A stretch of DNA of 54,963 nt from positions 1 through 54,963 of the forward strand of contig VGBT01000017.1 of the NCBI GenBank assembly GCA_016870395.1, in the 5' to 3' direction. The translations under genes were made by a program, and so were the position numbers. The notes beneath the pieces were generated by a model. That model searched no databases, had not been told where the DNA came from, and was given only the letters and a program-made list of their open reading frames with translations. This stretch comes from Actinomycetota bacterium. GTDB taxonomy: Bacteria > Actinomycetota > Acidimicrobiia > IMCC26256 > JAENVU01. Positions 8,397 to 37,434 of this stretch are shown in pieces (positions within the stretch are counted from its first letter, which is position 1; every line of letters starts with the position of its first letter).

Positions 8397-10805
8397 CTAG
8401 GCGGTTCGGGTGCCGATCGCGCCGGCGCGGGTGAGCTCGGCGAGCTCGGCGGCCGACAGCCCGAGGATGCCGCCCAGCACTTCCTCGTTGTGCTGCCCAA
8501 GGGTCGGCGCGGGGGTGCGGAACCAGCGGTCGATGCTTGCGTAACGGAACGGCATCGACGCCATCGGCATCGACCCGACGACCGGGTGCGTCGGCGTCTC
8601 GAAGTAGCCGCGCGCCTGCAGCTGCGGGTTCGTCTGCAGCAGTCGGCAGGGATCGGCCACCGCCGACGCGGGGATGCCTCCGGCCCGGAGCCGGTCGACC
8701 AGCCCGGCGCGTGACTGCGTGCGGGTCCACGAGCGCAAGTGTCCGTCGATCGTGTCGTGCGCGGCGGAGCGGCCGGCGTGGGAGTCCAACGCGGGATCTG
8801 CCGCCCACTCGGGATCGCCGAGGATCGAGCGCAACGCGCGCCAATGTTCGTCGGTGACGACCGAGAGCGCGAGCCACGGTGCCGTGGGGGTGTCCGCGTC
8901 GGCGCACGGGTACAGCCCCTGGGGCGCGGCGTGCGGCGAGCGGTTGCCGGCGCGTTCGATCAGCCGGCCGTAGGCGGTCCACTCGATGACCGGCTCGGCG
9001 GCGATGTTGAGGGCGGCCTCGGCGAGCGTGCTCTCGACGAGATGGCCGCGGCCCGTCCGCTCCCGCTGCTCGAGGGCGGCGAGGATCGCGACCGCGCCGT
9101 GCATCCCCGCGATCGGGTCGCACGGACCGCGGGGGATGCGCGGCTGGTCATCGGGGTGACCCGTGACCCATGCGAGCCCCGAGAACTGCTCGACGGTCTG
9201 GGCGAAGCCCGGCCGGTCACGCCACGGTCCAGAGAGGCCGAAGGCGGGCATGCGCACGTACACGGCGCGCGGGTTCAGCACCCGGACGCGGTCCCAGGTG
9301 AGGCCGAGGTCGTCCATCACTCGCGGTGTGAAGTTCTCGACCACGACGTCGCACCATTCGATCAGGCGCTCCACCAAAGCGAGCCCCGCGGGGTCGTGCA
9401 GGTCGAGGGTCACGTCGCGCTTGTCCGCGTTGCACTGCAGGAAGTGGGGGCTGGCCTCCCAGTGCTGCGGGTAGCTGCCCACCATCATCCCGCCGATCGA
9501 CCGGAGCCCGTCCGGGCGGCGCAGCGACTCGACGTGCACGACGTCCGCGCCCATGCACGCGAGCAAGTGCGTCGCGGCGGGTCCGGCCCACCACGCCGCG
9601 AGATCGAGCACCCGCAAGCCGGCCAGCGGAAGGGCGCCGGGATCGCGATCGCGGCGCGCCGGACGCGGACCCGAGAACGCCGGTCGTGCCTCCGGATCGA
9701 GCCGCGGCGCCGGTCGCGGCGCCGGCAGGTCGGCGTCGTCGATCCGATACGGAGGACGGGGGCGACGGAAACGGTCGCTCGCGTCCGATCCGAAACAGCC
9801 CCGCGCGACGAGGTGCGCGTCTTCGAGCACCGTCCTACCGTTGGCGACCGGTGAGACCGGGATGCGCAGCTCGGACGCGCGCTCGATGACCTCCGCGGTG
9901 GTGCGTGCGCCGCACCACCCGCGCACGATCTCGTTCCACTCGGCGAAGCGCATGATCCGGCCCGCGGGTGCGATCAGCTCGGCGTCGTCGAGGAGGTCGG
10001 GACGTCCCACGAGGCGGAGGAAGTCCTCGAACTGCTTGCGCGCGTTCGTGCAGAAGCCGACGTAGCCGTCCGCGGTCGGTTCGATCGACGGCGTCTCGAT
10101 GCCGGGTGCCAGGAACGCGTGGTCCGGATCGCTCGGCCCGCCGTTCATGAGCCGGTTCATCGTCTCGGAGTTGTTCGTGAAGACGAGGTTCGCGGTCTCG
10201 AGCAGCGACAGGTCGACGTGCTCGCCCCGTCCCGACCGCTGCGCGTGGAGCACCGCGGGGAGCGCGGCGGCCGCACCGTAGGCGCCACCCGCCCACTCGG
10301 TGATCCGGCCACCGGCCTGGAACGGCTCGCCCCCCAAGAGTCCGCGCAGGCCGAGGGATCCGGCCTCGGCCTGGAGCGTGAGATCGGTCGCGGCCCGTTC
10401 CGTCCACGGGCCGGTGCGGCCGTAGGGGGTGATCGAGAGCACGACGAGTGCGGGATGCGCGGCACGGAGCGCGTCCGCGTCGAGCCGCTCACCGGTCTCG
10501 TACGCGAGCCCGTGCGCCTCGATCACGAGGTCTGACTCGGCGATCAGCCTGGCGACGTGCGGGTCGGCGGCGGTGCCGACGACCGACTGCTTGCCGGCAT
10601 GCAGGAAGCAGAACAGCGCGGAGTCGCCGCCGCCGAGGTCGGCGCCGGTGGCCGACCATCGCCGCAGCGGGTCACCGCCCGAGGCCTCGACCTTGACCAC
10701 CTCCGCGCCGGCGTCGGCGAGGAGCTTCGAGCAGTAGGCGCCGGCGATCTGCGTCGAGAAGTCGAGCACGCGGATGCCCGCGAGCGGCGTGAATCCCGCG
10801 GTCAC
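8397..10805 (-). CDS. Class III (CaiB/BaiF) CoA transferase, tandem two-domain fusion
   Basis: Family III CoA transferases move CoA between an acyl-CoA donor and a carboxylic acid. This 802-residue protein contains two complete copies. Copy 1 starts PLAGIRVLDFSTQIAGAYCS with AEVVKVEASGGDPLR (residues 1 to about 390). Copy 2 starts PLAGLRVLDLAAWWAGPAAT with ADVVHVESLRRPDG (about 400-802). Single-domain members are about 400 residues. The position of the catalytic aspartate (SMxDA in formyl-CoA transferase) reads SLLETA in copy 1 and STLAEAA in copy 2, so glutamate may serve or one half may be inactive. Its ATG overlaps the P450 stop by 4 bp, giving a P450-CoA transferase operon that could prime the acid for the neighbouring pathway. 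Confidence 0.9.
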   Translation of the reverse strand: MTAGFTPLAGIRVLDFSTQIAGAYCSKLLADAGAEVVKVEASGGDPLRRWSATGADLGGGDSALFCFLHAGKQSVVGTAADPHVARLIAESDLVIEAHGLAYETGERLDADALRAAHPALVVLSITPYGRTGPWTERAATDLTLQAEAGSLGLRGLLGGEPFQAGGRITEWAGGAYGAAAALPAVLHAQRSGRGEHVDLSLLETANLVFTNNSETMNRLMNGGPSDPDHAFLAPGIETPSIEPTADGYVGFCTNARKQFEDFLRLVGRPDLLDDAELIAPAGRIMRFAEWNEIVRGWCGARTTAEVIERASELRIPVSPVANGRTVLEDAHLVARGCFGSDASDRFRRPRPPYRIDDADLPAPRPAPRLDPEARPAFSGPRPARRDRDPGALPLAGLRVLDLAAWWAGPAATHLLACMGADVVHVESLRRPDGLRSIGGMMVGSYPQHWEASPHFLQCNADKRDVTLDLHDPAGLALVERLIEWCDVVVENFTPRVMDDLGLTWDRVRVLNPRAVYVRMPAFGLSGPWRDRPGFAQTVEQFSGLAWVTGHPDDQPRIPRGPCDPIAGMHGAVAILAALEQRERTGRGHLVESTLAEAALNIAAEPVIEWTAYGRLIERAGNRSPHAAPQGLYPCADADTPTAPWLALSVVTDEHWRALRSILGDPEWAADPALDSHAGRSAAHDTIDGHLRSWTRTQSRAGLVDRLRAGGIPASAVADPCRLLQTNPQLQARGYFETPTHPVVGSMPMASMPFRYASIDRWFRTPAPTLGQHNEEVLGGILGLSAAELAELTRAGAIGTRTA

Positions 10806-12087: not shown

Positions 12088-12732
12088 ATGGCAACCGATG
12101 CCGCTCCCACGCGCAGCACCCGGCAACGTGCGGGCTACGCGAAGTCGCGTGAGACCAGGGCGCGGATCCTTGCCGCAGCGCTAGCGGAGGCGGTCGAGCG
12201 CGGGCTGCGCGACGCGACCGTCGCGCGCATCGCGGCACGCGCCGACACGGCGGTCGGCAACGTCAACTACCACTTCGGATCACGCGGCGCGCTGTTGCGC
12301 GATCTCATGCGTCTGCTGATGGCCGACCTCTCGGAGCGCCGATCGGTCGCGACTGCAGACGACGGCGACTTCTTTGCTCGCTACCGAGCCGAGCTGCTTG
12401 CCTACGTCGCCTACCTCCGTGCGAACCCGGCCCACGTGCGCCTCGCCGACGAGATCAAGTTCGCCGAGCCGGAGCTCTACCGCGAGGGCGTGCGCACCTG
12501 GGTCGGCCAGCTCGCGTCCCGTCTTCGGGCAGGAATCGCCGAAGGATCGATCCGTCCGATGGACGAGTCCGAGGTCACCGCGCAGGCCCACTTCCTGCTC
12601 GGGGCCCGTCACTTCCTCGAGGACATGATCGGTCACGACGGGCGGACCGGGGACGAAGCGGTCGTCGACGCCTACCTCGGACTCGTGCGCAACGGCCTCG
12701 CACGCGACCGTGCCGATCGGACCCACGGATGA
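12088..12732 (+). CDS. TetR-family transcriptional regulator
   Basis: A 214-residue repressor. The N-terminal helix-turn-helix reads RARILAAALAEAVERG...VARIAARADTAVGNVNYHFG (about residues 25-65), followed by an all-helical ligand-binding domain. It is the first gene of the rightward operon, and its stop overlaps the BVMO start (ATGA). It is divergent from the P450 across a 47-bp gap containing a palindrome, so it most likely represses both transcripts. An acyl-CoA ligand is likely by analogy with KstR-type regulators but cannot be read from sequence. Confidence 0.9.
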   Translation: MATDAAPTRSTRQRAGYAKSRETRARILAAALAEAVERGLRDATVARIAARADTAVGNVNYHFGSRGALLRDLMRLLMADLSERRSVATADDGDFFARYRAELLAYVAYLRANPAHVRLADEIKFAEPELYREGVRTWVGQLASRLRAGIAEGSIRPMDESEVTAQAHFLLGARHFLEDMIGHDGRTGDEAVVDAYLGLVRNGLARDRADRTHG

Positions 12733-14525
12733 GCACCGTCGCCGGCGTAGGCCTCGACCGCGAGGAGCTGCGGGAGCGCTACCGCGTCGAGCGGGAGAAG
12801 CGCCTCCGCGCCGACGGCACCGACCAGTACGTCCGGATCGCCGGCGAGTACGCGCACTTCGAGGACGACCCGTACGTCGCGCCCGGCTTTACTCGGCCAC
12901 CGCGCACCGACGACGTCGAGGTGGCCCTGATCGGCGGCGGGTTCGGCGGGCTGCTCACCGGTGCCCGGCTGCACCAGCTCGGGGTCGAGGACGTGCGCAT
13001 CATCGAGAAGGGCGGTGATGTCGGCGGAACATGGTACTGGAACCGCTACCCGGGGATCGCGTGCGATGTCGAGTCCTACGTGTACATCCCGCTGCTCGAG
13101 GAGCTCGACTACGTCCCGGTCGAGAAGTACAGCCGCGGCGAGGAGATCCAAGCGCACTGCCGGCGCATCGCGGAGCACTTCGACCTGTACCGGAACGCAA
13201 TGCTCCAGTCTCGGGTCACCGAGGTCCGGTGGGACGAGGGCGTTCGACGGTGGATCATTACGACGGACCGCGGCGACGCGATCCGGGCCCGGTTCGTGAC
13301 CCTCGCGAACGGGTTCCTGCAGAAGCCGAAGCTTCCGGGCATCCCCGGCCTCGCCACGTTCCGCGGGCGTGCCTTCCACACGAGCCGCTGGGAGTACTCC
13401 TACACGGGCGGCGACGCGCGCGGGAACCTCACCGGACTCGTAGACAAGCGGGTCGGTATCATCGGCACCGGCGCGACGGCGGTGCAGTGCGTGCCCCACC
13501 TTGGTGCCGCCGCCGCGCACCTTTACGTGTTCCAGCGCACGCCGTCGTCGATCGACGTGCGCGCGAACCGACCGACCGATCCGGATTGGGCCGGGTTGCT
13601 CGAGCCGGGCTGGCAGCAGCGGCGGATCGAGAATTTCCAGGTCCTCACCGCAGGCGGTTGGTCCGAGGAGGACCTCGTCGCCGACGGCTGGACCGACATC
13701 ACCCGCAAGCTCCTGTCGGTGTCGGTTCAGCAAGGCAACCCCGATCTTTCCCCGGAGGCGATCGCCGAGATGCTGGAGACCGCCGACTTCCTGAAGATGG
13801 AGGAGATCCGCGCGCGCGTCGACGAGCTCGTCGCCGACCCCGCAACCGCCGAGGCGCTCAAGCCGTGGTACCGGCAGTTCTGCAAGCGTCCCTGCTTCCA
13901 CGACGAGTACCTCCAGACGTTCAATCGCAAGAACGTGACGCTGGTCGACACGCGCGGCCGGGGCGTCGAGCGGATCACCGAGGACGGCGTCGTGGTCGAC
14001 GGCACGACCTACGAACTCGACTGTCTGATCTTCGCAACCGGCTTCGAGGTCGGCACGAGCTACTCGCGCCGGGCCGGCTTCGAGATTGTCGGCCGCGGTG
14101 GGCGGACACTCACCGAGCACTGGGCCAACGGTGTGCGGACCTTCCACGGCATTCACATTCACGGCTTCCCGAACCTGTTCATGAACAGCACGGCCCAGTC
14201 TGCGTTGACCGTGAACTTCCCGTACCTGATCGATCTCCAGGCGCGTCACGCGGCATGGACCATCGCGGAGGCGCTCGCTCGAGACATCGGCGAGGTTGAG
14301 GCCTCGGCCGAGGCTGAAGCGGGCTGGGTAGACGAGGTCGTGACCCGCGCCGCGCGCAGCGCGCAGTTCTCCGAGGGCTGCACCCCCGGCTACTACAACA
14401 ACGAGGGCACCGCCGACGCGAAGAGCCGCCAGGGCACCTTCTTCTTCGGCGCTCCAACCGAGTACGCAGAGATCCTCGAGACCTGGCGGGCCGAGGGGAC
14501 TATGGAAGGACTGGAGTGCCGATGA
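12729..14525 (+). CDS. Type I Baeyer-Villiger monooxygenase
   Basis: FAD- and NADPH-dependent enzyme that inserts oxygen next to a ketone to give an ester or lactone. The 598-residue size and the roughly 60-residue N-terminal extension fit the phenylacetone/cyclododecanone/steroid monooxygenase branch. Motifs are the first Rossmann GGGFGG (about 70), GGTWYWNRYPGIACDVES, the BVMO fingerprint FRGRAFHTSRW (FxGxxxHxxxW, about 213), and the second Rossmann GTGATA (about 250). It overlaps TetR upstream and the cupin downstream by 4 bp each. Its presence at the head of an aldolytic side-chain operon suggests it acts on the ketone product. Confidence 0.92.
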   Translation: MSTVAGVGLDREELRERYRVEREKRLRADGTDQYVRIAGEYAHFEDDPYVAPGFTRPPRTDDVEVALIGGGFGGLLTGARLHQLGVEDVRIIEKGGDVGGTWYWNRYPGIACDVESYVYIPLLEELDYVPVEKYSRGEEIQAHCRRIAEHFDLYRNAMLQSRVTEVRWDEGVRRWIITTDRGDAIRARFVTLANGFLQKPKLPGIPGLATFRGRAFHTSRWEYSYTGGDARGNLTGLVDKRVGIIGTGATAVQCVPHLGAAAAHLYVFQRTPSSIDVRANRPTDPDWAGLLEPGWQQRRIENFQVLTAGGWSEEDLVADGWTDITRKLLSVSVQQGNPDLSPEAIAEMLETADFLKMEEIRARVDELVADPATAEALKPWYRQFCKRPCFHDEYLQTFNRKNVTLVDTRGRGVERITEDGVVVDGTTYELDCLIFATGFEVGTSYSRRAGFEIVGRGGRTLTEHWANGVRTFHGIHIHGFPNLFMNSTAQSALTVNFPYLIDLQARHAAWTIAEALARDIGEVEASAEAEAGWVDEVVTRAARSAQFSEGCTPGYYNNEGTADAKSRQGTFFFGAPTEYAEILETWRAEGTMEGLECR

Positions 14526-14986
14526 GCCGACCGAGCGCCTTCGATCCGGCCGGCTACCGATGGCGCGAAGTGACCGAGTCGCCGGGGGACTACCTCGTGC
14601 ACCACGGCTACACCATCCTCGGCTACGACCTCGCGGCCGGCACGCTCGACATGCTGGTCCGGTGGGACGGCGACGGCGGCCACTGCCCGATTCACCGCCA
14701 CACGGCGACGACCACGGTGCTCGTGCTCGACGGCCAACAGCACCTCTGGGACGTCGCGCCCGACGGGTCGCGCGGGCCCGAGCGCGTCCGCCGCGCCGGC
14801 GACTACGCGCTCACCCTCGTCGAGGCGGCGCCCCATCTCGAGCGCGGCGGTCCGGCCGGCGGTCTCGTGTTCTTCGGCTCGCACTCCGACGACGGGCGGC
14901 TCTACGACATCGTTGACGACGCCGGGAACGTGATCGTCGAGGTGACGATGGAGACGCTCGTCGCCGACTGGAAGGCGAACACCTGA
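14522..14986 (+). CDS. Cupin-domain protein of unknown function
   Basis: A 154-residue single cupin. The metal-site motif PIHRHTATTTVLVLDGQQHL lies near residue 60, and a second strand pair around HLERGGPAGGLVFFGSH supplies another candidate histidine. The ATG at 14522 overlaps the BVMO stop as ATGA, so the two are translationally coupled; an in-frame ATG at 14516 is less likely. It resembles small dioxygenase-type or ligand-binding cupins, but I cannot give a reaction. No equivalent sits in the mycobacterial igr operon, so it is probably linked to the BVMO step. Confidence 0.75.
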   Translation: MSRPSAFDPAGYRWREVTESPGDYLVHHGYTILGYDLAAGTLDMLVRWDGDGGHCPIHRHTATTTVLVLDGQQHLWDVAPDGSRGPERVRRAGDYALTLVEAAPHLERGGPAGGLVFFGSHSDDGRLYDIVDDAGNVIVEVTMETLVADWKANT

Positions 14987-14987
14987 G

Positions 14988-16163
14988 ATGAACTTCGAGC
15001 TCACGCCCGACCAGGGTGCCTTTCGCGACGAGCTGCGCGCCTACTTCGCCACGATGATGACCGCAGCGCTCACCTCCGAGCTCGCCATCAACCTCGAGGG
15101 CGGGGGCCCGGAGTTCCGCGCGGCCATGCGCCAGATGGGTCGCGACGGTCTGCTCGGGCTGAGCTGGCCGAAGGAGTACGGCGGCCAGGAGCGCTCCGCG
15201 GTCGAGCAGTACCTCTTTGCCGACGAGGTGCAGGGGGTCGGCTTCCCGCTGCCGTTTCTCACGCTGAACACCGTCGGCCCGATGTTGCGCGTGCACGGCA
15301 CCGACGCGCAGCGCGACTTCTTCTGCCCGCGGATCCTTGCCGGTGAGATCTTCTTCGCAATCGGCTACTCGGAGCCTGGAGCCGGCACCGACCTCGCGTC
15401 GCTTACCACCTCGGCCGTGCGCGACGGCGACGAGTGGGTCATCAACGGACAGAAGATGTGGACCAGCCTGGCTCAGTACGCCGACTACGTCTGGCTGGCG
15501 GCACGTACCGACCCCGAGGCACCGAAGCACAAGGGCCTGTCGATCTTCCTGGTGCCGACGACCTCGGCGGGGTTCTCGCGCACGCCCGTGCACACGGTCG
15601 GCGGCGTGATGACCAACGCCACCTATTACGACGACGTGCGGGTCCCGGCGGAGAACCTCATCGGTGGCGAGAACAACGGCTGGAGGCTCATCACAGGCCA
15701 GCTCAACCACGAGCGCGTCTCGCTGGTCACCGTGAGCCGCCTCCTGCGTGATCTGCGGTCGGTCACCGACTGGGCACGCGAGACCGTCGTCGACGACGCT
15801 CCGGTGATCGAGCGCTCGTGGGTGCAGCAAAACCTCGCCCGCGTGTACGCGAAGACACAGGTCGTCCGGCTGATGTGCTGGCGCCAGGCCTGGGCCGCGG
15901 ACTCCGGCCAGCCTCAGCCGGCCGAGTCCTCCGCGATCAAGGTGCTAGGCAGCGAGTTCAACCTAGAGGCCTATCGGGCGATGCTCGAGGTGCTCGGCAC
16001 CGCTGGGGTGCTCCGCGGCGACGCTCCCGGCGCGGTGCTGAAGGGCCGGGTCGAGTCGTCGTACCGCAACGCGCTGATCCTCACCTTCGGGGGTGGCACG
16101 AACGAGATCCAGCGCGACATCATCGCCATGGCCGGCCTCGGCATGCCTCACTACAAGGACTGA
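14988..16163 (+). CDS. Acyl-CoA dehydrogenase, FadE29/ChsE2-like subunit
   Basis: FAD enzyme of 391 residues that introduces an alpha-beta double bond in an acyl-CoA. It begins MNFELTPDQGAFRDELRAYF. The central FAD/substrate block reads GYSEPGAGTDLASLTTSA with WVINGQKMWTS, and the end reads LTFGGGTNEIQRDIIAMAGL. That last motif is typical of the larger subunit of heteromeric steroid dehydrogenases. It lies 1 bp after the cupin and 3 bp before a second, smaller acyl-CoA dehydrogenase. Adjacent pairs of this kind form alpha2beta2 enzymes in Mycobacterium (ChsE1-ChsE2). The steroid-type substrate is inference. Confidence 0.88.
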   Translation: MNFELTPDQGAFRDELRAYFATMMTAALTSELAINLEGGGPEFRAAMRQMGRDGLLGLSWPKEYGGQERSAVEQYLFADEVQGVGFPLPFLTLNTVGPMLRVHGTDAQRDFFCPRILAGEIFFAIGYSEPGAGTDLASLTTSAVRDGDEWVINGQKMWTSLAQYADYVWLAARTDPEAPKHKGLSIFLVPTTSAGFSRTPVHTVGGVMTNATYYDDVRVPAENLIGGENNGWRLITGQLNHERVSLVTVSRLLRDLRSVTDWARETVVDDAPVIERSWVQQNLARVYAKTQVVRLMCWRQAWAADSGQPQPAESSAIKVLGSEFNLEAYRAMLEVLGTAGVLRGDAPGAVLKGRVESSYRNALILTFGGGTNEIQRDIIAMAGLGMPHYKD

Positions 16164-16166
16164 CCC

Positions 16167-17291
16167 GTGGACTTCAGCTTCAGGGAGGACGAGGACGCCG
16201 CCGCCGAGCTCGCGCGGCAGATCCTCGAGGACCACGCGACCAACGAGCGGCTGAAGGAGCTCGAGCGGACCGGCGCGCCCGTCGACGAGCAGCTGTGGCA
16301 CGCTCTCGCCGCGGCCGACCTGCTCGGCATCGCGGTTCCGACCGACGACGGGGGCTCGGGCCAGGGCTTCCTCGCGCTCGGCCGATTGCTCCAGGAGGTC
16401 GGTCGCACGGTCGCGCCGGTCCCGGTCTACGCCGCGCTTGTGCTGGGCGCGTGGCCGATCAGCGAGTTCGGCGATGAGACGACGCGCGCTTGGCTCGGAC
16501 CAATCGCGCGCGGCGAGCTGATCGTCACCGCCGCGCTAGAGGAGCCCGCGTCGAGCGACCTGTACGCACCGACAACCCGCGGAGAAGGAGCCGGCGAGTC
16601 GGTGCGACTCACCGGCACGCGGACGAACGTGCCGCACGCCGAGCAGGCGGGCTACATCCTCGTCCCCGCCCGCTGCGACGACGGGGAGACTGGCCTCTTC
16701 CATGTCGCGACCGATGCGTCGGGCCTCCGCCTGACCCCCCAGCAGACCTCCGACGGGCAGCCGCACGCGCTGCTCGAGCTCGACGCCGCGCCCGCCGCCG
16801 CCCGCCTTGACACGCCGGGCCACGGTGCCGAGACCTTGGTGCGAGTGGTCGAGATCGCAACCGTGGCGCGGTGCCTTGTGCAGCTCGGTGTCACCGAGCG
16901 CGCGCTCGAGATGACTGCCGCCTATAGCCGGGAGCGGATCCAGTTCGACCGACCCATCGGCAGCTTCCAGGCCGTCCACCAACGCGCCGCCGACGCGTTT
17001 ATCCAGGTCGAGGGCATCCGCCTCACCGCGTGGGAGGCCGCGTGGCGCATCGCGAACGGACTCCCCGCGGCCGAGCAGGTGATGGTTGCCAAGTACCTCG
17101 CGGCCGAGGGCGGCCAGTTCGCCGCGTTCGCGTGCCAGCACCTACACGGCGGCGTCGGTATCGACGTCGACTACCCGCTCCACCGCTACTTCATGTGGGC
17201 GATCCAGCTCGAGCACGAGCTCGGCTCCGCCCGGCACCAGCTCGACCACCTCGGCCGGCACCTCGCGGCTGCGGGCATCCCCGCGGCGTGA
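16167..17291 (+). CDS. Acyl-CoA dehydrogenase, FadE28/ChsE1-like subunit
   Basis: A 374-residue partner of the preceding gene, starting at GTG 16167 (MDFSFREDEDAAAELARQIL). The C-terminal domain contains YSRERIQFDRPIGSFQAVHQ and HGGVGIDVDYPLHRYFMWA, the second a hallmark of the FadE28-type subunit. The middle, FAD-contacting part is less conserved than in its partner, as expected if only one FAD site is formed per heterodimer. The likely product is half of an alpha2beta2 dehydrogenase acting on a short branched side chain attached to a ring system. Confidence 0.85.
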   Translation: MDFSFREDEDAAAELARQILEDHATNERLKELERTGAPVDEQLWHALAAADLLGIAVPTDDGGSGQGFLALGRLLQEVGRTVAPVPVYAALVLGAWPISEFGDETTRAWLGPIARGELIVTAALEEPASSDLYAPTTRGEGAGESVRLTGTRTNVPHAEQAGYILVPARCDDGETGLFHVATDASGLRLTPQQTSDGQPHALLELDAAPAAARLDTPGHGAETLVRVVEIATVARCLVQLGVTERALEMTAAYSRERIQFDRPIGSFQAVHQRAADAFIQVEGIRLTAWEAAWRIANGLPAAEQVMVAKYLAAEGGQFAAFACQHLHGGVGIDVDYPLHRYFMWAIQLEHELGSARHQLDHLGRHLAAAGIPAA

Positions 17292-17328
17292 GGACCATGC
17301 CGGCGGTCTACCGAACAGGAAGGACACG

Positions 17329-17880
17329 ATGACCGAAACGACGCTCGACGAGCAGCTCCAGGCGCTGGTCGGCCGACCGATCGGCGAAGGGGGTCCGGCC
17401 CATGCTCCCGATCCGGTGAACCAGCCGATGATCCGGCACTGGGCCGCGGCCTTCGAGGACGCCAATCCCGTCTACACCGATCCCGTCGCCGCGGCCGCGT
17501 CCCGGCACAGCGGGATCGTGGCCCCACCAATGATGCTCCAGACCTGGATCATGGCGACGCCGAAGATCACCGGCATCGCCGAGCGCGGCGGCTCGCCTGT
17601 CGAGGGGGGCCGGGTGAAGGTGCTGGCACTCCTCAGCGACGCGGGCTTCGTCGGCACGCTGGCGTCGAACTCCGAGTTCGAGATCGTCCGGTACCTGCGC
17701 CTCGGCGACGAGGTGTCCGCCGAGACGGTACTCGAGTCTGTGTCACCCGAGAAGCAGACGCGCCTGGGCCCCGGGCACTTCGTCACCTGGGTGACCACCT
17801 ACACCGACGCTTGCGGCGAGGTGCTGGGGCGCCAGCGATTCCGGATCTTGAAGTTCCGTCCGGTCGCAGGCCCGTCGTGA
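17329..17880 (+). CDS. MaoC-like hydratase subunit, matches ChsH2 N-terminal domain
   Basis: A 183-residue hot-dog-fold protein of the FAS1-dehydratase-like MaoC group, with IRHWAAAFEDANPVYTDP near the start and HSGIVAPPMMLQTWIM after it. In Mycobacterium the same domain is the first half of ChsH2 (about 310 residues), which pairs with ChsH1 to hydrate the enoyl-CoA. Here the gene stops at TGA 17878-17880, and the DUF35 half begins at GTG 17877 in a different frame, so ChsH2 is encoded as two proteins. The ATG at 17329 has AGGAAGGAC just upstream. The preceding 37-bp gap is the largest inside the operon. Confidence 0.85.
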   Translation: MTETTLDEQLQALVGRPIGEGGPAHAPDPVNQPMIRHWAAAFEDANPVYTDPVAAAASRHSGIVAPPMMLQTWIMATPKITGIAERGGSPVEGGRVKVLALLSDAGFVGTLASNSEFEIVRYLRLGDEVSAETVLESVSPEKQTRLGPGHFVTWVTTYTDACGEVLGRQRFRILKFRPVAGPS

Positions 17881-18281
17881 GCGCGCGCCTTGCGCCGTCG
17901 ATGACGGCGGACACGCAGTTCTTCTGGGACGGCGTGAAGAAACACCGCCTGCTCATCCAGCGCTGCACCGCGTGCCGCACGCTGCGGCACCCACCACGCC
18001 CGATGTGCCCCACGTGCCACGCGCTCGCCTGGGACACGGTCGAGGCGTCGGGTCGCGGGACCGTGTACAGCTTCGTGATCCCTCGTCACCCGCCACTGCC
18101 TTGGTTCCCCGAGCCCTACGTTGTCGCGCTCGTCGAGCTCGACGAGGGCACGCGGCTCGTGACCAACCTCGTCGGCATCCCGCACGACGCCGTGACGATG
18201 GGCATGAAGGTGCGCGTGCGGTACGAGCACTTCGACGACGACCTCGTCCTGCCCATGTTCACCCCGGAGGACGCGCCATGA
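17877..18281 (+). CDS. DUF35 OB-fold/zinc-ribbon protein, matches ChsH2 C-terminal domain
   Basis: A 134-residue protein with a rubredoxin-like zinc ribbon, CTAC...HPPRPMCPTCHALAW, then an OB-fold (GRGTVYSFVIPRHP, PYVVALVELDEGTRL). DUF35 proteins bind SCP-x-like thiolases and are needed for aldolase activity; in ChsH2 this domain docks on Ltp2. The GTG at 17877 overlaps the MaoC stop by 4 bp (GTGA), and an ATG eight codons later is possible. Together this and the preceding gene encode 183 + 134 residues, close to the length of fused ChsH2. It overlaps the next gene by 4 bp as well, so all four are translationally coupled. Confidence 0.87.
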   Translation: MSARLAPSMTADTQFFWDGVKKHRLLIQRCTACRTLRHPPRPMCPTCHALAWDTVEASGRGTVYSFVIPRHPPLPWFPEPYVVALVELDEGTRLVTNLVGIPHDAVTMGMKVRVRYEHFDDDLVLPMFTPEDAP

Positions 18282-18712
18282 CCGCCGCGACCAGTGTCGA
18301 CTGGAGCTCCTTGACCGTTGGCGACGCGTTGCCCGAGCTCGTCCTCGACGTGACCGCGACGCGGATCGTCGCGGGCGCGATCGCGTCCCGGGACCTCATG
18401 CCGGTGCATCACGACCGCGACTACGCGAACCAGCAGGGCGCGCCGGACATCTTCATGAACATCCTCTCGGACACCGCCTACTGCAGCCGGTTCCTCACGG
18501 ACTGGGCCGGGCCGGACGCGTTTGTGCGGCGGCTCGCGATCCGTCTCGGGGTGCCGGTGTTCCCCGGCCACACCCTGACCTTCACCGGTGAGGTCACCCG
18601 GCTCACCCGGGAGCACGACGAGGGACTTGTCGAGATCGAGTTGCGCGCCGTGAACGACCTCGGGGAGCACGTGAGCGGCACCGCGACGATCAACCTGCCG
18701 ATCGCGCGATGA
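18278..18712 (+). CDS. MaoC-like enoyl-CoA hydratase, ChsH1-like
   Basis: A 144-residue hot-dog-fold hydratase. ASRDLMPVHHDRDYANQQGA carries the aspartate and histidine of the MaoC active site (about residues 36-46), and PVFPGHTLTFTGEV is the usual downstream strand. ChsH1 in Mycobacterium is of similar size and supplies the catalytic residues to the ChsH1-ChsH2 complex. The ATG at 18278 overlaps the DUF35 stop (ATGA), and its own stop overlaps the thiolase start. The predicted reaction is hydration of the enoyl-CoA made by the two dehydrogenases. Confidence 0.87.
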   Translation: MTAATSVDWSSLTVGDALPELVLDVTATRIVAGAIASRDLMPVHHDRDYANQQGAPDIFMNILSDTAYCSRFLTDWAGPDAFVRRLAIRLGVPVFPGHTLTFTGEVTRLTREHDEGLVEIELRAVNDLGEHVSGTATINLPIAR

Positions 18713-19878
18713 GCGACGCGAATCTCTCCGGCCGGGCTGCGATCGCAGGCATCGGCCAGACCGAGTTCTCGAAGGAGTCCGGTCGGACCGAGCTCCAGCT
18801 CGCCTGCGAGTCGGTGCTCGCGGCAGTGCGTGACGCGGGCCTCGAGCCGGGCGATGTCGACGGCCTCGTGACGTTCACGATGGACACGAGCGAGGAGATG
18901 GAGGTGGCGCGCAACCTCGGAATGCGCGAGGTCCGCTTCTTCAGTCGCGTCAGCTACGGCGGTGGAGCGTCGGCGGCTACAATCGCGCACGCGGCGATGG
19001 CGGTCGCGGCGGGAATGGCCGACGTCGTCGTCTCCTACCGCGCGTTCAACGAGCGGTCCGGCAACCGCTTCGGGAACATGAGCGGCCGGGTCGGCGTGCT
19101 GCCGCTCTGGCTGTCGTGGTACGCGCCGTACGGGCTCATGACGCCGGCTGCGTGGGTGGCGCTCTACGCCCGGCCGTACATGGAGCGCTACGGCGTCACC
19201 AACGCCGACTTCGGGCGCATCGCGGTCGTGGACCGCTCGCACGCGGCCACCAATCCCGACGCATGGTTCTACGAGCGGCCGATCACCCTCGAGGACCACC
19301 AATCGTCGCGCTGGATCGTCGAGCCGGTGCTGCGCCTGCTCGACTGCTGCCAGGAGAGCGACGGCGGCGTCGCGATCGTCGTGACGTCGGCCGAGCGCGC
19401 CCGTGACCTGCCCCAACCCCCGGCGATCGTCACTGCGGCCGCGCAGGGCGCGACGTTCGACGGTGAGACGATGACGAGCTACTACAAGGACGATCTGGAC
19501 GGACTGCCCGAGATGGGTGTTGTCGGCCGGACGCTGTGGGAGCAGTCGGCGCTGACGCCCGCGGACGTGTCGACCGCGTTTCTCTACGACCACTTCACCC
19601 CGTTCGTGCTCATGCAGCTCGAGGAGCTGGGCTTCTGCGCGCGCGGAGAGGCGAAGGACTGGGCGACCATCGAGCGGCTGTCAATCGGTGGAGAGCTGCC
19701 GATCAACACCAGCGGCGGGTTGCTCGGCGAGGCGTACATCCACGGGATGAACGGCATTACCGAGGTAGTCCGCCAGATCCGCGGCACCGCGGTCAACCAG
19801 GTGGCCGACGTCGAGCACGCGCTCGTGACCGCCGGTACCGGCGTTCCGACGAGCGGGCTCATCCTGTCGAAGCTGTGA
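18709..19878 (+). CDS. SCP-x-like thiolase-fold aldolase, Ltp2-like
   Basis: A 389-residue thiolase-superfamily protein. It begins AAIAGIGQTEFSKESGRTEL and has SYGGGASAATIAHAAMAVAA where classical thiolases carry the acyl-enzyme cysteine, so that cysteine is absent. The tyrosine-containing motifs TAFLYDHFTPFVLMQLEELG and INTSGGLLGEAYIHGMNG match Ltp2-type retro-aldolases, whose catalysis uses tyrosines. In Mycobacterium Ltp2 with the DUF35 domain cleaves the C17 side-chain beta-hydroxyacyl-CoA to a 17-ketone and propionyl-CoA. Gene order and family make the same retro-aldol chemistry likely here; the ring structure of the substrate is unknown. Confidence 0.87.
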   Translation: MSDANLSGRAAIAGIGQTEFSKESGRTELQLACESVLAAVRDAGLEPGDVDGLVTFTMDTSEEMEVARNLGMREVRFFSRVSYGGGASAATIAHAAMAVAAGMADVVVSYRAFNERSGNRFGNMSGRVGVLPLWLSWYAPYGLMTPAAWVALYARPYMERYGVTNADFGRIAVVDRSHAATNPDAWFYERPITLEDHQSSRWIVEPVLRLLDCCQESDGGVAIVVTSAERARDLPQPPAIVTAAAQGATFDGETMTSYYKDDLDGLPEMGVVGRTLWEQSALTPADVSTAFLYDHFTPFVLMQLEELGFCARGEAKDWATIERLSIGGELPINTSGGLLGEAYIHGMNGITEVVRQIRGTAVNQVADVEHALVTAGTGVPTSGLILSKL

Positions 19879-19903: not shown

Positions 19904-20929
19904 ATGAAGGCGATCCAACTGGAGGAAGGCGAGCTGCACGTTCGCACCGTCGACGTGCCCGAGCCGGGTCCCGACCAGGCGCGGGTCCACCTCGCCGCGT
20001 CGGGGGTGTGCCACTCCGATCTCCATCTCGCGCGCGGCGATTGGACGGGCGTGCCCCGCAGCATGAGCCTCGGCCACGAGGGCATCGGCGTCGTGGAGGC
20101 GCTCGGCCCCGGCGCGGACCGCTTCGTCGCAGTGGGCGACCGGGTGATCCTCGGCCTCGGGGGAATGGGGGGCGGCTACTGGTGCGGTGCGTGCGAGTAC
20201 TGCCTGAGCGGACGCCCCCGGCTTTGCGCGCAGGCCCAGCCACTCATGGGGACCTTCGCCGAGCAGATCTCCGTGTGGGCACCGGCGCTCGTGAAGGTGC
20301 CCGACGCGCTCGGCGACCAGGAGGCCCCACTCGCGTGCGGCGGGCTCACCGCGTTCAGCGCGGTGCGCAAGCTCGTCGCGCAGAGCATCCCGCCGGGCCG
20401 CACCGTCGCGGTCGTCGGTGCCGCCGGCGGCCTCGGGCACTACGCGGTGCAGATCCTGCACGCGTTCGGCTATCGCGTCGTGGGCGTCGACGTGGGCGAG
20501 GAGCGGCTCGAGTTCGTACGGTCGCTCGGCGCCGAGCACGTCGTGAGCGCAGACGACGCCGCGGGCTTCGCGTTCGGCCTCGGCGGCGTCGACGCGTCGC
20601 TCGTGTTCGCGGCTCGGCTGGCGGGCTTCGAGCTCGGCCTCGGGATGCTCAAGCGCGGTGGCCTGTTCGTCGCGGTCGGGATTCCGCCGTCGAGTGACGG
20701 CAACCTCCAGCTCCACCCCTGGCAGATGTTCCTCACCGACCCGACGATCATGTACTCGGCCGTCGGTACCGTTCAGGAGATGCGCGAGCTCGTCGAGCTG
20801 GCCGCGGCCGGAAAGGTGAAGACCCACGTGTCGAGAGTCGGCACGCTCTCCGACGTCCCGGCCATCTTCGACGAGCTCGAAACAGGCAGCTACCTCGGCC
20901 GGGCCGTCGTCACCGACCTGAGCCGCTGA
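19904..20929 (+). CDS. Zinc-dependent alcohol dehydrogenase (MDR family)
   Basis: A 341-residue NAD(P)-dependent alcohol dehydrogenase. Catalytic zinc ligands are in SGVCHSDLHLARGDW and GHEGIG; the structural zinc loop is WCGACEYCLSGRPRLC; the Rossmann motif is VVGAAGGLGHYAVQ. The ATG at 19904 follows GAGGAGG-like sequence (ggcgaggaggtcgatgac) by a suitable distance. It lies 25 bp after the thiolase and 10 bp before the second monooxygenase, so it belongs to the same operon. Possible jobs are oxidising an alcohol freed by ester hydrolysis or one made by the P450. Confidence 0.9.
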   Translation: MKAIQLEEGELHVRTVDVPEPGPDQARVHLAASGVCHSDLHLARGDWTGVPRSMSLGHEGIGVVEALGPGADRFVAVGDRVILGLGGMGGGYWCGACEYCLSGRPRLCAQAQPLMGTFAEQISVWAPALVKVPDALGDQEAPLACGGLTAFSAVRKLVAQSIPPGRTVAVVGAAGGLGHYAVQILHAFGYRVVGVDVGEERLEFVRSLGAEHVVSADDAAGFAFGLGGVDASLVFAARLAGFELGLGMLKRGGLFVAVGIPPSSDGNLQLHPWQMFLTDPTIMYSAVGTVQEMRELVELAAAGKVKTHVSRVGTLSDVPAIFDELETGSYLGRAVVTDLSR

Positions 20930-20939
20930 GAAGACCACA

Positions 20940-22409
20940 ATGACCGAGCGGCAGCTGCGCATCGCCATCGTCGGCGCCGGTGCAGGCGGGCTATGCGCCG
21001 GCAAGCGCCTGCTCGACGAGGGCTACGACGACTTCGTGATCCTCGAGCGCGCCGACGACGTCGGCGGAACCTGGCGACGCAATACGTACCCGGGCTGCGA
21101 GTGCGACGTGCCCTCGGCGTTGTACTCGTTCACCTGGGCGTTCAAACCCGACTGGTCGAAGCCCTACGGCAGACAGCCCGAGATCCTCGCGTACCTGCGC
21201 GACATCGCGGAGCAATTCGGTCTGCGCCCGCACTGCCGCTTCGGCGACGGGGTCGTCAGCGCCTGCTGGGACGAGGCCTCCGCCGCGTGGACGCTCACTC
21301 AGGAGTCGGGCGCCACCGTCGAAGCCCACGTCGTGGTCAGCGCGATCGGCATGTTCAACGCGCTGTCCTGGCCCGACATCGAAGGATTCGACACGTTCAG
21401 GGGCGCGATGTGGCACTCGGCCGCATGGAACTGGGACCACGACCTCGCCGGCAAGCGGATCGCGGTGATCGGCAGCGCGGCGAGCGCGGTGCAGCTCGTC
21501 CCCGAGATCGTGAAGACGGCGGGCCAGGTGCACCTGTTCCAGCGGACCGCCAACTGGGTCCTGCCGAAGGTGGATGACGAGTTCACCGAGGAGCAGATCG
21601 ACGCGTTCCGCACCGATCCCGCACCGTTGCTCACGTTCCGCGCCGAGACCGAGCAGCACATGAACGCGGGAATGACCTTCGCGATCCCGAGTCAGCTCGT
21701 TGAACGCGAAGCAGTGGGGTTGGCCGCCATCGAGGTCGTGGAGGATCCCGTCGTGCGCGCCAAGCTCCGGCCACAGCACCCGTTCGGCGCCAAGCGCCCG
21801 CTGTTCTCGAATCTCTACTATCCGGCCTTCAACCGGCCGAATCTCGAGCTGGTCACCAACGCAATCGCGCGGATCACCTGCTCCGGCGTGGTGACCGCCG
21901 ACGGTGTGGAGCGAGAGGTCGACGTGATCGTCATCGCCACGGGCTTTGCCACCACGAAGTACCTGTCGGCGATCGAGGTCACCGGCCGCGACGGCCGGCG
22001 GATCGTCGACGCCTGGAACGACGGTCCGCTCGCCTACCTCGGCATCATGACGTCGGGGTTCCCGAACCTGTTCATGCTCTACGGGCCGAACACCAACAAC
22101 GGGTCGATCCTGACGATGATCGAGGCGCAGGTGGACCACGTGTTGCTCCACCTGCGCCGGCTGCGCGACGAGGGTGTCCGATGGGTGGACGTCCGGCCGG
22201 AGGCGATGACCGCGTACAACATCGAGGTGCAGGAGGCGATCGCCAGGGTGCGCGTATGGCAGGCCGACTGCCATGGCTACTACCGCGCCCCGAGCGGGCG
22301 CATCGTGACCCAGTGGCCCTTCTCGATGCTCGAGTATCAGGAACGCGCCGCGACTCTGGACCCCGATGCGTTCCAGGTCGGCGGCTGCACTCCCGGAGAC
22401 GGATCGTGA
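20940..22409 (+). CDS. Flavin-containing monooxygenase, BVMO type (short form)
   Basis: A 489-residue FAD/NADPH monooxygenase without the N-terminal extension of the first BVMO. Motifs are GAGAGGLCAG (FAD Rossmann, residues 11-20), GGTWRRNTYPGCECDVPSAL, FRGAMWHSAAWNWD (BVMO fingerprint FxGxxxHxxxW), and GSAASAVQLVPEI (NADPH Rossmann). It is the last intact gene of the operon. Two BVMO-type enzymes in one operon suggest two ketone steps, or different substrate ranges. Its TGA overlaps a GTG (22406) that opens a short, apparently broken frame. Confidence 0.9.
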   Translation: MTERQLRIAIVGAGAGGLCAGKRLLDEGYDDFVILERADDVGGTWRRNTYPGCECDVPSALYSFTWAFKPDWSKPYGRQPEILAYLRDIAEQFGLRPHCRFGDGVVSACWDEASAAWTLTQESGATVEAHVVVSAIGMFNALSWPDIEGFDTFRGAMWHSAAWNWDHDLAGKRIAVIGSAASAVQLVPEIVKTAGQVHLFQRTANWVLPKVDDEFTEEQIDAFRTDPAPLLTFRAETEQHMNAGMTFAIPSQLVEREAVGLAAIEVVEDPVVRAKLRPQHPFGAKRPLFSNLYYPAFNRPNLELVTNAIARITCSGVVTADGVEREVDVIVIATGFATTKYLSAIEVTGRDGRRIVDAWNDGPLAYLGIMTSGFPNLFMLYGPNTNNGSILTMIEAQVDHVLLHLRRLRDEGVRWVDVRPEAMTAYNIEVQEAIARVRVWQADCHGYYRAPSGRIVTQWPFSMLEYQERAATLDPDAFQVGGCTPGDGS

Positions 22410-22924: not shown

Positions 22925-23797
22925 ATGGCTGCAGCACCCAGTGACGTGCCCGAACACCGGTTGGTCGCCGAGGGGAAGGTCGTGGTCGTCCCCGGCGTCT
23001 ACGACGCGCTCTCCGCCAAGCTGGCGCAGCGCGCCGGGTTCCCCGCGGTGGTGCTCACAGGCTACGGCGTGGCCGCCGCCACCCTGGGCGAGCCCGACTT
23101 CGGCCTGCTCACCCAGACCGAGATGCTCGACGTCGCGCGGCGTGTCTGTGCCGCCACCGACCTGGCTGTCATCGTCGACGGCGACACCGGCTACGGGGGT
23201 CCGTTGAACGTCCAGCACCTCGTCCGCGAGCTCGTACGGGTGGGGGCGTTCGGGGTGTTGCTCGAGGATCAGCGCTGGCCGAAACGATGCGGGCACATGC
23301 GCGAGAAGTCGGTCGTCGATGCCGAGGACCACGCAGCCAAGATCCGGGCCGCGGTCGACGCCCGCGGCAGCAACCACCTGACGATCACCGCTCGAACGGA
23401 TGCCCTCGCCACGCACGGGCTCGACGAGGCCGTGCGCCGAGCCCACCTTTATAAGGAGGCCGGCGCCGACGTGCTGTTCGTGGAGGGGCCGCGCAACGTC
23501 GATGAGCTCCGTGCCATCGGCGAGCAACTCCCGCCTCCGCTGGCGGTGAACCTCATCGAGGGTGGCCAGACGCCGCTGTGCTCGCTGGAGGAGCTCTTTG
23601 AGATGGGGTTCTTCTCGGTGGGGTTCGTACTGTCCGGGCTGTATGCCGCGGCCAGGGCGCTCGACCGGACCTACCGGCACCTCCGCCAGTTCGCGGAGAC
23701 GGACTCGATTGCAGACTCGTTGATGGCCTTCGACGCGTTCGGAGAGATGATCGGACTGGAAGAGCGCTACGCGAGCGACGAGCGATACCGGACCTGA
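22925..23797 (+). CDS. Isocitrate lyase/PEP mutase superfamily enzyme
   Basis: A 290-residue TIM-barrel lyase or mutase. It has PGVYDALSAKLAQRAGF near the start, the metal-binding VDGDTGYGGPLNV (about residue 84), LLEDQRWPKRCGHM with the K-R/K-C-G-H gating-loop motif (about 115-125), and TARTDALATHGLDEA. Members cleave C-C bonds of 2-methylisocitrate, dimethylmalate or oxaloacetate, or act on phosphonates; length and motifs fit the PrpB/carboxyvinyl-carboxyphosphonate-mutase-like branch. If it is a methylisocitrate lyase it would handle propionyl-CoA-derived carbon from the upstream aldolytic operon, but no prpC or prpD is present here. Confidence 0.82.
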   Translation: MAAAPSDVPEHRLVAEGKVVVVPGVYDALSAKLAQRAGFPAVVLTGYGVAAATLGEPDFGLLTQTEMLDVARRVCAATDLAVIVDGDTGYGGPLNVQHLVRELVRVGAFGVLLEDQRWPKRCGHMREKSVVDAEDHAAKIRAAVDARGSNHLTITARTDALATHGLDEAVRRAHLYKEAGADVLFVEGPRNVDELRAIGEQLPPPLAVNLIEGGQTPLCSLEELFEMGFFSVGFVLSGLYAAARALDRTYRHLRQFAETDSIADSLMAFDAFGEMIGLEERYASDERYRT

Positions 23798-31740: not shown

Positions 31741-32925
31741 TCACTCGACGGCACCGGCGTGGCGCAGCTCTTCGATCCGGGTCGCGTCGTACCCGAGGAC
31801 GTCCCGCAGGATCGCGTCGGTGTCGGCACCGACGCGCGGCGCCGGACCGAGATCGGGGTGCGGCTCGCGCGCGTGAATCGGCGTGCGAGTCAGGCGCGGA
31901 CCATCGACGACCGGGCCGGTCGTGTGGAACCGGGCGCGGAACTGCGGATCATCGAGCAGCTCCGATGCCCGGTTGACCGGCGCGCCGGGCACGTCATGGT
32001 CGATGAAGAAGCGCACCCAGTCGGCTTGTGAGCGCGTCGCGAAGATTGCTGCGAGCTCGCGCCGCAAGACCACGTCGTCACGGGCGTGCTCGCCGAACTC
32101 GGCACCAGAGTCGTCGGTCAAGAGATCGTCGCGGCCCAGTGCACGGCAGAATCGTTCGAAGAAGTGCCGCTCCGAGGCTTGAAACAAGATCGTCCGTCCG
32201 TCCGCCGTGTCGTAGTACTGATACCGGACCGCGGCCGTCATGCCTCCGCGATGTTCGGGAACGTCTGCCCCCGCGAGCAGCTCGTCGACGCGACCGGCGT
32301 TGAACGCGACGGCGGCATCGGCCTGTGCGACATCGAGCCAGGTTCCCTGGCCAGTGGCCCGCGCGCGGAGCAAGGCCGCGAGCACCCCGACAGCCCCGTA
32401 GAGCGCGCCGGCCTTCGTCCCGATGTCGTGGTAGCGCCGGGGGATCGCGGGGAAGTCGTCCTCGGTCCGCTCGGGGCGGGCGAGGCCGGCGTACGCGTCG
32501 TAAGCGACGCCATGAGTCGCGAGGTCACGGTAGGGGCCGGTCTGGCCGAATCCAGACAGGCTTGCGAACACCAGCGACGGGTTCACCGAGCGGAGGGCCT
32601 CGTAGCCGAGCCCACGGCGATCGAGTGCGCCCGCGCGCAGGCCCTCGATCACGACTTCGCTTGCTGCGACGAGCTCGCGGAAGACGTCTGCGCCGTCGGG
32701 CCGGCGCAGATCGATCGCGATACTGCGCTTGCCGCGGTTCCAGCGCACGTGGAGCATCGAGACGCCATCCAGACGGGAGCCACCGACTGCGCGCGTGTAG
32801 TCGCCCCGTCCGGGCTGCTCGACCTTGAGCACGTCGGCACCGAGGTCCGCGAGGTGCATGCCGAGCATGTTGGGAGCCAAGAGCGCGACTTCCACGACTC
32901 GCAGTCCGTCGAGCAACGCCATCAC
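31741..32925 (-). CDS. Class III (CaiB/BaiF) CoA transferase
   Basis: A 394-residue single-domain family III CoA transferase. LLDGLRVVEVALLAPNMLGM opens the Rossmann-like domain, then ADVLKVEQPGRGDYTR binds CoA, and GQGTWLDVAQADAAVAFNA carries the region of the catalytic aspartate. The end has FFIDHDVPGAPVNRASELLD. It is the last gene of the leftward operon, 7 bp after the enoyl-CoA hydratase. It could recycle CoA from a product thioester to the incoming acid, in parallel with the ligase of the same operon. Confidence 0.9.
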   Translation of the reverse strand: MMALLDGLRVVEVALLAPNMLGMHLADLGADVLKVEQPGRGDYTRAVGGSRLDGVSMLHVRWNRGKRSIAIDLRRPDGADVFRELVAASEVVIEGLRAGALDRRGLGYEALRSVNPSLVFASLSGFGQTGPYRDLATHGVAYDAYAGLARPERTEDDFPAIPRRYHDIGTKAGALYGAVGVLAALLRARATGQGTWLDVAQADAAVAFNAGRVDELLAGADVPEHRGGMTAAVRYQYYDTADGRTILFQASERHFFERFCRALGRDDLLTDDSGAEFGEHARDDVVLRRELAAIFATRSQADWVRFFIDHDVPGAPVNRASELLDDPQFRARFHTTGPVVDGPRLTRTPIHAREPHPDLGPAPRVGADTDAILRDVLGYDATRIEELRHAGAVE

Positions 32926-32932
32926 CTGGTCC

Positions 32933-33739
32933 TCAGGTTCCGGTGAAGTCAGGGCGACGTCCCTCGAGGAGCGAACGGACGCCCTCGAGTCGGTCGGCGG
33001 TCTGAGAGATCAACGCGGTTGCCGTTGCCTCCTCGCCGAAGGCGGTGGCCATGTCGCTCACCAGCGACCGACGGTAGAGCCGCTTGGTGAGTCCGAGGCT
33101 TCTGGTCGGACCCTCGGCAAGACGGTGGGCGAGCTCCGCGGCGGTCGCTTCCACCTCAGCGGCAGGCACGAGCCGGTTCACAGCACCCCACGCGTGGATG
33201 GTCTCGGAGGTGAGCGTCTCTCCGAGCAACGCGGCTTCGTTCAGCCGATGGAAGGGAAGCAGCCGCGGCAGGAAGAAGGGGTCGCCGGCGTGGGGAACCA
33301 TGCCGCGGCGTGCGAAGACGTGGATCCAGCGGGCGCCCGCTGCCGCGACCACGAGGTCGGCAAGCAGCGCAAGCATCCAGCCGGCGCCGGCCGTCGTGCC
33401 GTTGACCGCGCTCACGACAGGTGTCTCCAGCTCCCAGTACGTCCGGAAAAGCTCCTGGTAGGGAACCACCGCGCGCCGGTAGTCGAGCACGCTCACCGGA
33501 CGTTGAGATGCGGCGTCGCCTCCACCCGCGGGTGTGAGGTCTGCACCGGTGCAGAAGTCGGTGCCGCTGCCGGTGATGACGACAGATCGCACAGTCGGGT
33601 CGGCGTCGATCTCGGCGAGCAGCGAGCGGAGCTCGCCGCGCATCGTCGGGTCGATCGCGTTGCGCGCTTCCGGACGCGCCAGTCGGATCCACAGGACCGC
33701 GTCGTCACGCTCCAGACGCAGGGTTTCTGGCTCAGGCAT
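32933..33739 (-). CDS. Enoyl-CoA hydratase/isomerase (crotonase family)
   Basis: A 268-residue crotonase-fold enzyme. The oxyanion-hole motifs are TGSGTDFCTGADLTPAG (about 50-66) and NGTTAGAGWMLALLADLVVA (about 108-127). The position of the second catalytic glutamate is replaced by the ARRGMVPHAGDPFFLPRL region, so hydratase versus isomerase activity is open. I chose the ATG at 33739; the frame extends further upstream into the 3' end of the ligase gene. It lies 10 bp after the ligase and supplies the hydration step of the operon. Confidence 0.88.
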   Translation of the reverse strand: MPEPETLRLERDDAVLWIRLARPEARNAIDPTMRGELRSLLAEIDADPTVRSVVITGSGTDFCTGADLTPAGGGDAASQRPVSVLDYRRAVVPYQELFRTYWELETPVVSAVNGTTAGAGWMLALLADLVVAAAGARWIHVFARRGMVPHAGDPFFLPRLLPFHRLNEAALLGETLTSETIHAWGAVNRLVPAAEVEATAAELAHRLAEGPTRSLGLTKRLYRRSLVSDMATAFGEEATATALISQTADRLEGVRSLLEGRRPDFTGT

Positions 33740-33749
33740 CGGGTGCACG

Positions 33750-36262: not shown

Positions 36263-36264
36263 CG

Positions 36265-37431: not shown

Positions 37432-37434
37432 GGC

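Follow-up and report, generated by a model that had tools for sequence, protein, structure and literature searches.

Is a ChsH2 protein that is encoded in two overlapping genes, one for its MaoC half and one for its DUF35 half, a natural arrangement or a sequencing error, and do the hydratase and the aldolase served by these halves need a covalent link? The question is raised by a 54,963-nucleotide contig of an Acidimicrobiia bacterium (the whole stretch is called here the window), in which six genes on the positive strand, overlapping or shortly spaced, fill positions 14988-19878. The first two encode acyl-CoA dehydrogenases: ACAD1, a ChsE/CasL-type subunit (14988-16163), and its partner subunit ACAD2 (16167-17291). 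A search of PDB sequences matched each of them to a different subunit of the steroid alpha2-beta2 dehydrogenases 4x28 and 6wy8 (ACAD1: 4x28 chain A, 5.4e-143, and 6wy8 chain B, 1.2e-122; ACAD2: 6wy8 chain A, 3.9e-73, and 4x28 chain D, 1.6e-60). The third gene (17329-17880) codes for a MaoC protein of 183 aa, predicted to be inert, that corresponds to the N-terminal half of ChsH2 (4w78/4wnb, 1.6e-30). It is followed by a stand-alone DUF35 gene with a GTG start (17877-18281, 134 aa), a ChsH1-type MaoC hydratase gene (18278-18712, 144 aa; 4wnb chain B, 2e-32) and the gene of an Ltp2-type retro-aldolase (18709-19878, 389 aa; 6ok1 chain A, 4.6e-172), whose product scored 652.8 bits against the curated cut-off of 469 for NCBIfam PRK07855. 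The last two junctions, DUF35/ChsH1 at 18278-18281 and ChsH1/Ltp2 at 18709-18712, are ATGA overlaps.

The initial annotation had proposed, from motifs and gene order, an igr-like aldolytic operon, and the family and PDB matches of all six genes bear this out; in the profile searches, the MaoC, DUF35 and thiolase genes each fell in the family named. The DUF35 gene was correctly taken as the C-terminal half of ChsH2, since it matches 6ok1 chain B (2e-44) and the Pfam families zf-ChsH2 and OB_ChsH2_C, i.e., a zinc ribbon plus an OB fold. The description of ChsH2 as two overlapping genes (183 and 134 codons) that share a GTGA stop/start at 17877-17880 holds to the base: the MaoC stop codon lies at 17878-17880, and MaoC and DUF35 are not part of one polypeptide.

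The catalytic and metal-binding residues of these proteins are intact. The window MaoC carries the motif D44-x-N-P-x-Y49, with Tyr in the position of the hydratase His, as in the inert ChsH2, and ChsH1 keeps the catalytic Asp39/His44, a dyad present in 75 of 75 sequences of the split group (see below). The window thus shows the combination of one Asp/His MaoC with one Tyr-for-His MaoC that marks the heteromeric ChsH1-ChsH2 steroid hydratase. The DUF35 zinc ribbon is C30-C33-C44-C47 (C-x2-C-x10-C-x2-C), and all 75 split-group rows have the four Cys. Ltp2 has Tyr293/His295 (in YDHF) and Tyr343, the Tyr residues being counterparts of Tyr294 and Tyr344 of TcLtp2; this Tyr/His/Tyr set is intact in all split-group rows that cover those positions. 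At the usually inert catalytic position, His replaces Tyr in 6 of 75 split-group MaoC sequences, e.g., L030 and L031. A single-chain AlphaFold model of MaoC, made with 9 sequences, had a pLDDT of 61.8 and was too poor for use.

About 85,000 species genomes were scanned, which gave 305 loci with relatives of the MaoC half, and the best 80 were retained. Among these 80 best named loci, 64 were split, 16 had no DUF35 gene nearby and none was fused. The carriers include Mycobacterium isolates, Acidimicrobiia and Binatia-type MAGs. Named isolates are, among others, Mycobacterium asiaticum, M. fragae, M. simulans, M. shimoidei, M. colombiense, M. bohemicum, M. gordonae, M. szulgai, M. angelicum and M. 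interjectum, and likewise Mycolicibacterium vulneris and Mycolicibacterium moriokaense. Genes of this clade also occur in three MAG records (L117, L121 and L138) that bear the names Bifidobacterium breve, Ferrithrix thermotolerans and Klebsiella pneumoniae, respectively, names that look like nearest-reference labels rather than the true identity. All 64 split loci have a start codon at most a few bases away from the MaoC stop, comparable to the window's junction: 39 are TGATG, 24 are NTGA (16 ATGA, 7 GTGA and 1 TTGA) and in one the start is just past the stop. Most fused forms have a longer interdomain linker rich in P, A and G, often containing RPRP; in the split form this linker is gone, the MaoC ending 5 aa past LKFRP and the DUF35 protein starting about 6 aa ahead of its fold.

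An assembly or sequencing frameshift within an ordinary fused chsH2 could mimic such a junction, given that the MaoC and DUF35 frames are one step apart with a 4-base overlap, as a one-base deletion could leave them, and one locus (L223, in genome G015), with its linker still present, does resemble a frameshift break. For the window's clade, however, comparative conservation rules an artefact out. The same layout recurs in 64 of the 80 loci, many of them Mycobacterium isolates, so that a missing base in one assembly is excluded; its junctions are mainly of two types (ATGA/GTGA and TGATG), the linker is missing and the clade has 100/100 support, and we give the artefact practically no credence. 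The claim of a natural arrangement is upheld. Programmed frameshifting over GTGA, by which part of the MaoC and DUF35 would be made as a fusion, appears very improbable: the genes do overlap, and the frame of one relative to the other is constant in almost every split locus, but inspection by eye of 17865-17885 noticed no slippery sequence, the mycobacterial junction is of another type (TGATG), and the stop/start overlap is consistent with coupled re-initiation.

A concatenated Ltp2 and DUF35 tree, rooted with own-genome paralog pairs, placed the window in a split clade with 100/100 support that comprises Acidimicrobiia, mycobacteria and Binatia-type MAGs. The L223 split sat among fused rows, and a single clade of all splits including L223 was rejected by the AU test (p 1e-6); with its linker retained, this locus could have arisen by a recent break or reflect a faulty assembly. 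The ChsH2 split is conserved as a character of a single clade. It is a real, old variant of a known system and apparently undescribed; a search of the open-access literature found no description of a native split ChsH2 or of a second mycobacterial igr operon.

The word split, as used in the initial annotation, implies a fused ancestor, and here the rooted trees fit fission and a never-fused history alike: AU tests accepted both the fused forms as one clade (p 0.44) and the split forms nested within the fused ones (p 0.50). That separate MaoC and DUF35 proteins are the older state, the Mycobacterium-type ChsH2 being a derived fusion, is to us almost an even proposition. Two loci of the window's genome (L199 and L203) have a separate DUF35 gene beside a thiolase-like partner, DUF35 is separate in the known BbsAB, PhlBC and ChsH4-Atf1 pairs, and the single fused clade is not rejected; on the other side, the nesting of split within fused is equally acceptable, and the mycobacterial split operons retain the gene order of the fused operon, ACAD1-H2-ACAD2-H1-Ltp2.

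An own-genome paralog search found a single copy of the ChsH2-N MaoC gene in the window's genome. In the mycobacterial genomes G152, G432 and G440 the split form is accompanied by further ChsH2-type MaoC genes, whose long open frames are of the kind seen for fused ChsH2, and in G339 a DUF35-less hydratase is divergent from a fused operon. In the mycobacterial genomes examined, the split operon is paralogous and comes in addition to, not in place of, the canonical fused form, which is also present there. The split ChsH2 of the initial annotation is thus real but not unique, being the trait of a paralogous clade that co-occurs with the fused form. Relatives that lack neighbouring DUF35 and Ltp2 genes fall inside the split group of the MaoC tree. 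Five such loci, L090, L092, L094, L095 and L096 (9313-10319, negative strand), have a ChsH2-N/ChsH1-type pair with no DUF35 or Ltp2 beside it and fall in the window's MaoC clade; they retain the hydratase half with no aldolase half next to it. An Ltp2 of the split-clade level (74-81% identity) was absent from five examined genomes that have the DUF35-less form (G026, G027, G039, G042 and G339), where the best Ltp2 had 61-69% identity, the level of fused operons. Other domain layouts were also seen. L100, L101, L102, L103 and L105 have a fusion of ChsH2-N MaoC to ChsH1 of about 320-350 aa, lacking DUF35, that forms a separate group (support 100/99), and L047/L229 (G057:C95) presents an apparent triple fusion MaoC-DUF35-ChsH1 in one open frame of 611 aa.

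The operon is flanked by genes that could serve the same pathway. On the negative strand lie a two-domain CaiB/BaiF-type CoA-transferase (8397-10805; NCBIfam CaiB-type models, below cut-off) and a CYP125/126/124-like cytochrome P450 (10802-12040; CYP125 ancestor, PDB 8vxi, 3.2e-122). The positive strand has a TetR-type regulator, assigned from its ORF (12088-12732), a Baeyer-Villiger monooxygenase of the PtlE/polycyclic-ketone type, BVMO1 (12729-14525; PDB 5mq6, 2.8e-134; 817.7 bits with the NCBIfam PtlE profile, under the cut-off of 1100), and a small protein, cupin-like by eye and with no Pfam match, that is paired with it (14516-14986). The two genes occur together again in L092 (74/75% identity) and L105 (56/51%). 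Beyond Ltp2 follow a zinc alcohol dehydrogenase (19904-20929, positive strand), which has a close homolog next to the core in L088/L091, whereas the mycobacterial clusters have a distant alcohol dehydrogenase, and a second BVMO-like flavin monooxygenase, BVMO2 (20940-22409, positive strand), of which homologs at 64% adjoin the core in L140 and L141. The split cluster of mycobacteria is composed of a CaiB-type CoA-transferase, homologous to the window's and next to the operon, a CYP125/124/142-like P450, ACAD1, MaoC, DUF35, ACAD2, ChsH1, Ltp2 and an alcohol dehydrogenase; the window contains genes of these kinds and, in addition, two BVMO-like enzymes and the small partner protein. Downstream, the gene at 22946-23797 belongs to the isocitrate-lyase/PEP-mutase family, with methylisocitrate lyase as its nearest model (248.5 bits, short of the 354 cut-off), and a link to propionyl-CoA use is possible. 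A second cluster on the negative strand (31741-38229) has, by eye, CaiB-like, crotonase-like, AMP-ligase-like, two ACAD-like and SDR-like genes, of which the ACAD at 36265-37431 was confirmed by profile; it is probably another acyl-CoA degradation unit.

Taken from the sequences, we consider it very probable that this is an igr/cas-type operon that removes a three-carbon (alpha-methyl) CoA side chain from a polycyclic, probably steroid-like substrate, with MaoC and DUF35 as separate proteins and the hydratase and the aldolase as two complexes. A side-chain carbon would be oxidised and then activated with CoA, the ACAD pair would form the enoyl-CoA, and a MaoC/ChsH1 heteromer would hydrate it, with substrate binding by the inert MaoC and Asp/His from ChsH1. 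Ltp2, with DUF35 on its dimer, would carry out the retro-aldol cleavage to a ring ketone and propionyl-CoA, and a Baeyer-Villiger step on the ketone may be guessed from the gene neighbourhood. Because MaoC and DUF35 would be made as separate, translationally coupled proteins, we infer that hydratase and aldolase are two complexes, in non-covalent contact at most. The covalent link between MaoC and DUF35 appears dispensable, because dozens of related bacteria make two separate proteins.

The enzyme families favour a steroid-like substrate. The initial annotation compared the operon with that of mycobacterial cholesterol side-chain removal; the igr-like aldolytic type stands, but cholesterol is at most a putative substrate: homologous enzymes act on bile acids in C. 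testosteroni and R. jostii, and no convincing HsaC-type dioxygenase was found in the window's genome (best match partial, 47.7 bits). The same genome has one KshA_C match, a 319-aa Rieske-type protein of uncertain identity, and classical steroid ring cleavage by the 9,10-seco pathway is not evident in it. HsaC is missing in most fused-ChsH2 genomes of the order too, so its absence cannot tell the split from the fused form and was discarded as a non-specific mark of split genomes. The IpdE2 profile, another steroid-ring marker, gave no match above cut-off in any genome searched and was uninformative.

A role in breaking down a non-sterol compound, polycyclic or terpenoid, whose ketone the neighbouring Baeyer-Villiger enzymes would open in a pathway not of the cholesterol type, would account for the resemblance of BVMO1 to PtlE and polycyclic-ketone monooxygenase and for the recurrence of BVMO homologs near this hydratase clade (L091, L092, L105, L129, L140 and L141). 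It would also agree with the lack of a strong HsaC in the window's genome and of any KshA_C match in the split-operon genomes G044, G046 and G047 (95-100% complete). We nevertheless regard it as unlikely: the P450 is CYP125-like, the ACADs, hydratase and aldolase are nearest, among known structures, to steroid enzymes, the HsaC deficit extends to most fused-ChsH2 genomes of the order, and no BVMO homolog was found at distances up to 7 kb from the mycobacterial cores. As a less than even possibility, we suggest that the split-ChsH2 clade could represent an unrecognised second side-chain pathway for a non-cholesterol substrate (CYP125-like P450, CaiB-type CoA-transferase, ACAD pair and uncoupled hydratase and aldolase, with BVMO ring opening in Acidimicrobiia), common to Acidimicrobiia, many mycobacteria and Binatia-type bacteria, including the relatives with the hydratase but no neighbouring DUF35-Ltp2. 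That many non-tuberculous mycobacteria amenable to culture have a further igr-like operon is relevant to the annotation of sterol catabolism and to steroid biotechnology.

Coupling of hydratase to aldolase is believed to drive a hydration that is unfavourable by itself, and the reason why the proteobacterial Shy-Sal assembles into one complex was called unclear in 2025 (PMC12329534). A widespread, natural untethered lineage whose mycobacterial members share the cell with fused paralogs offers a matched native pair for measuring the benefit of tethering. The initial annotation saw in the window a natural test of the need for covalent linkage; such a native pair is apparently undescribed, but it would not be the first test. 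The question is partly answered, because in C. testosteroni TA441 the separately expressed halves of ChsH2 kept hydratase and aldolase activity, although complementation by DUF35 alone was weaker than by whole ChsH2 (PMC12502768). In TA441 (ORF40-44) the native ORF40 is fused and the separation was engineered, whereas in the window it is natural (PMC12502768).

The M. tuberculosis igr operon (chsE1-chsE2, chsH2, chsH1, ltp2; 4W78/4WNB) has the same families, catalytic residues and dehydrogenase-hydratase-aldolase logic as the window; its ChsH2 is one protein, whereas the window has two, with no linker, and P450, CoA-transferase and BVMO neighbours. The Ltp2-ChsH2(DUF35) pair of Thermomonospora curvata (6OK1) likewise shares families and catalytic residues. 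The casL-casP genes of Rhodococcus jostii RHA1, for the C3 side chain of bile acids, resemble the mycobacterial split operons by their gene order, ACAD-H2-ACAD-H1-aldolase (PMC8399759); in the window, unlike in cas, the two ACADs stand together in front. A stand-alone DUF35 of 138 aa, ChsH4, works with the steroid aldolase Atf1 in Mycolicibacterium neoaurum (PMC10398937), a pair similar to the window's in its separate DUF35 and different in acting at C22-C23, from an operon that has no dedicated MaoC pair (PMC10398937). In Shy-Sal of Proteobacteria (9MYR), DUF35 docks the hydratase to the aldolase; Shy is a homomeric MaoC fused to a DUF35 with a C3H1 zinc site, whereas the window has a C4 site and a predicted heteromeric hydratase.
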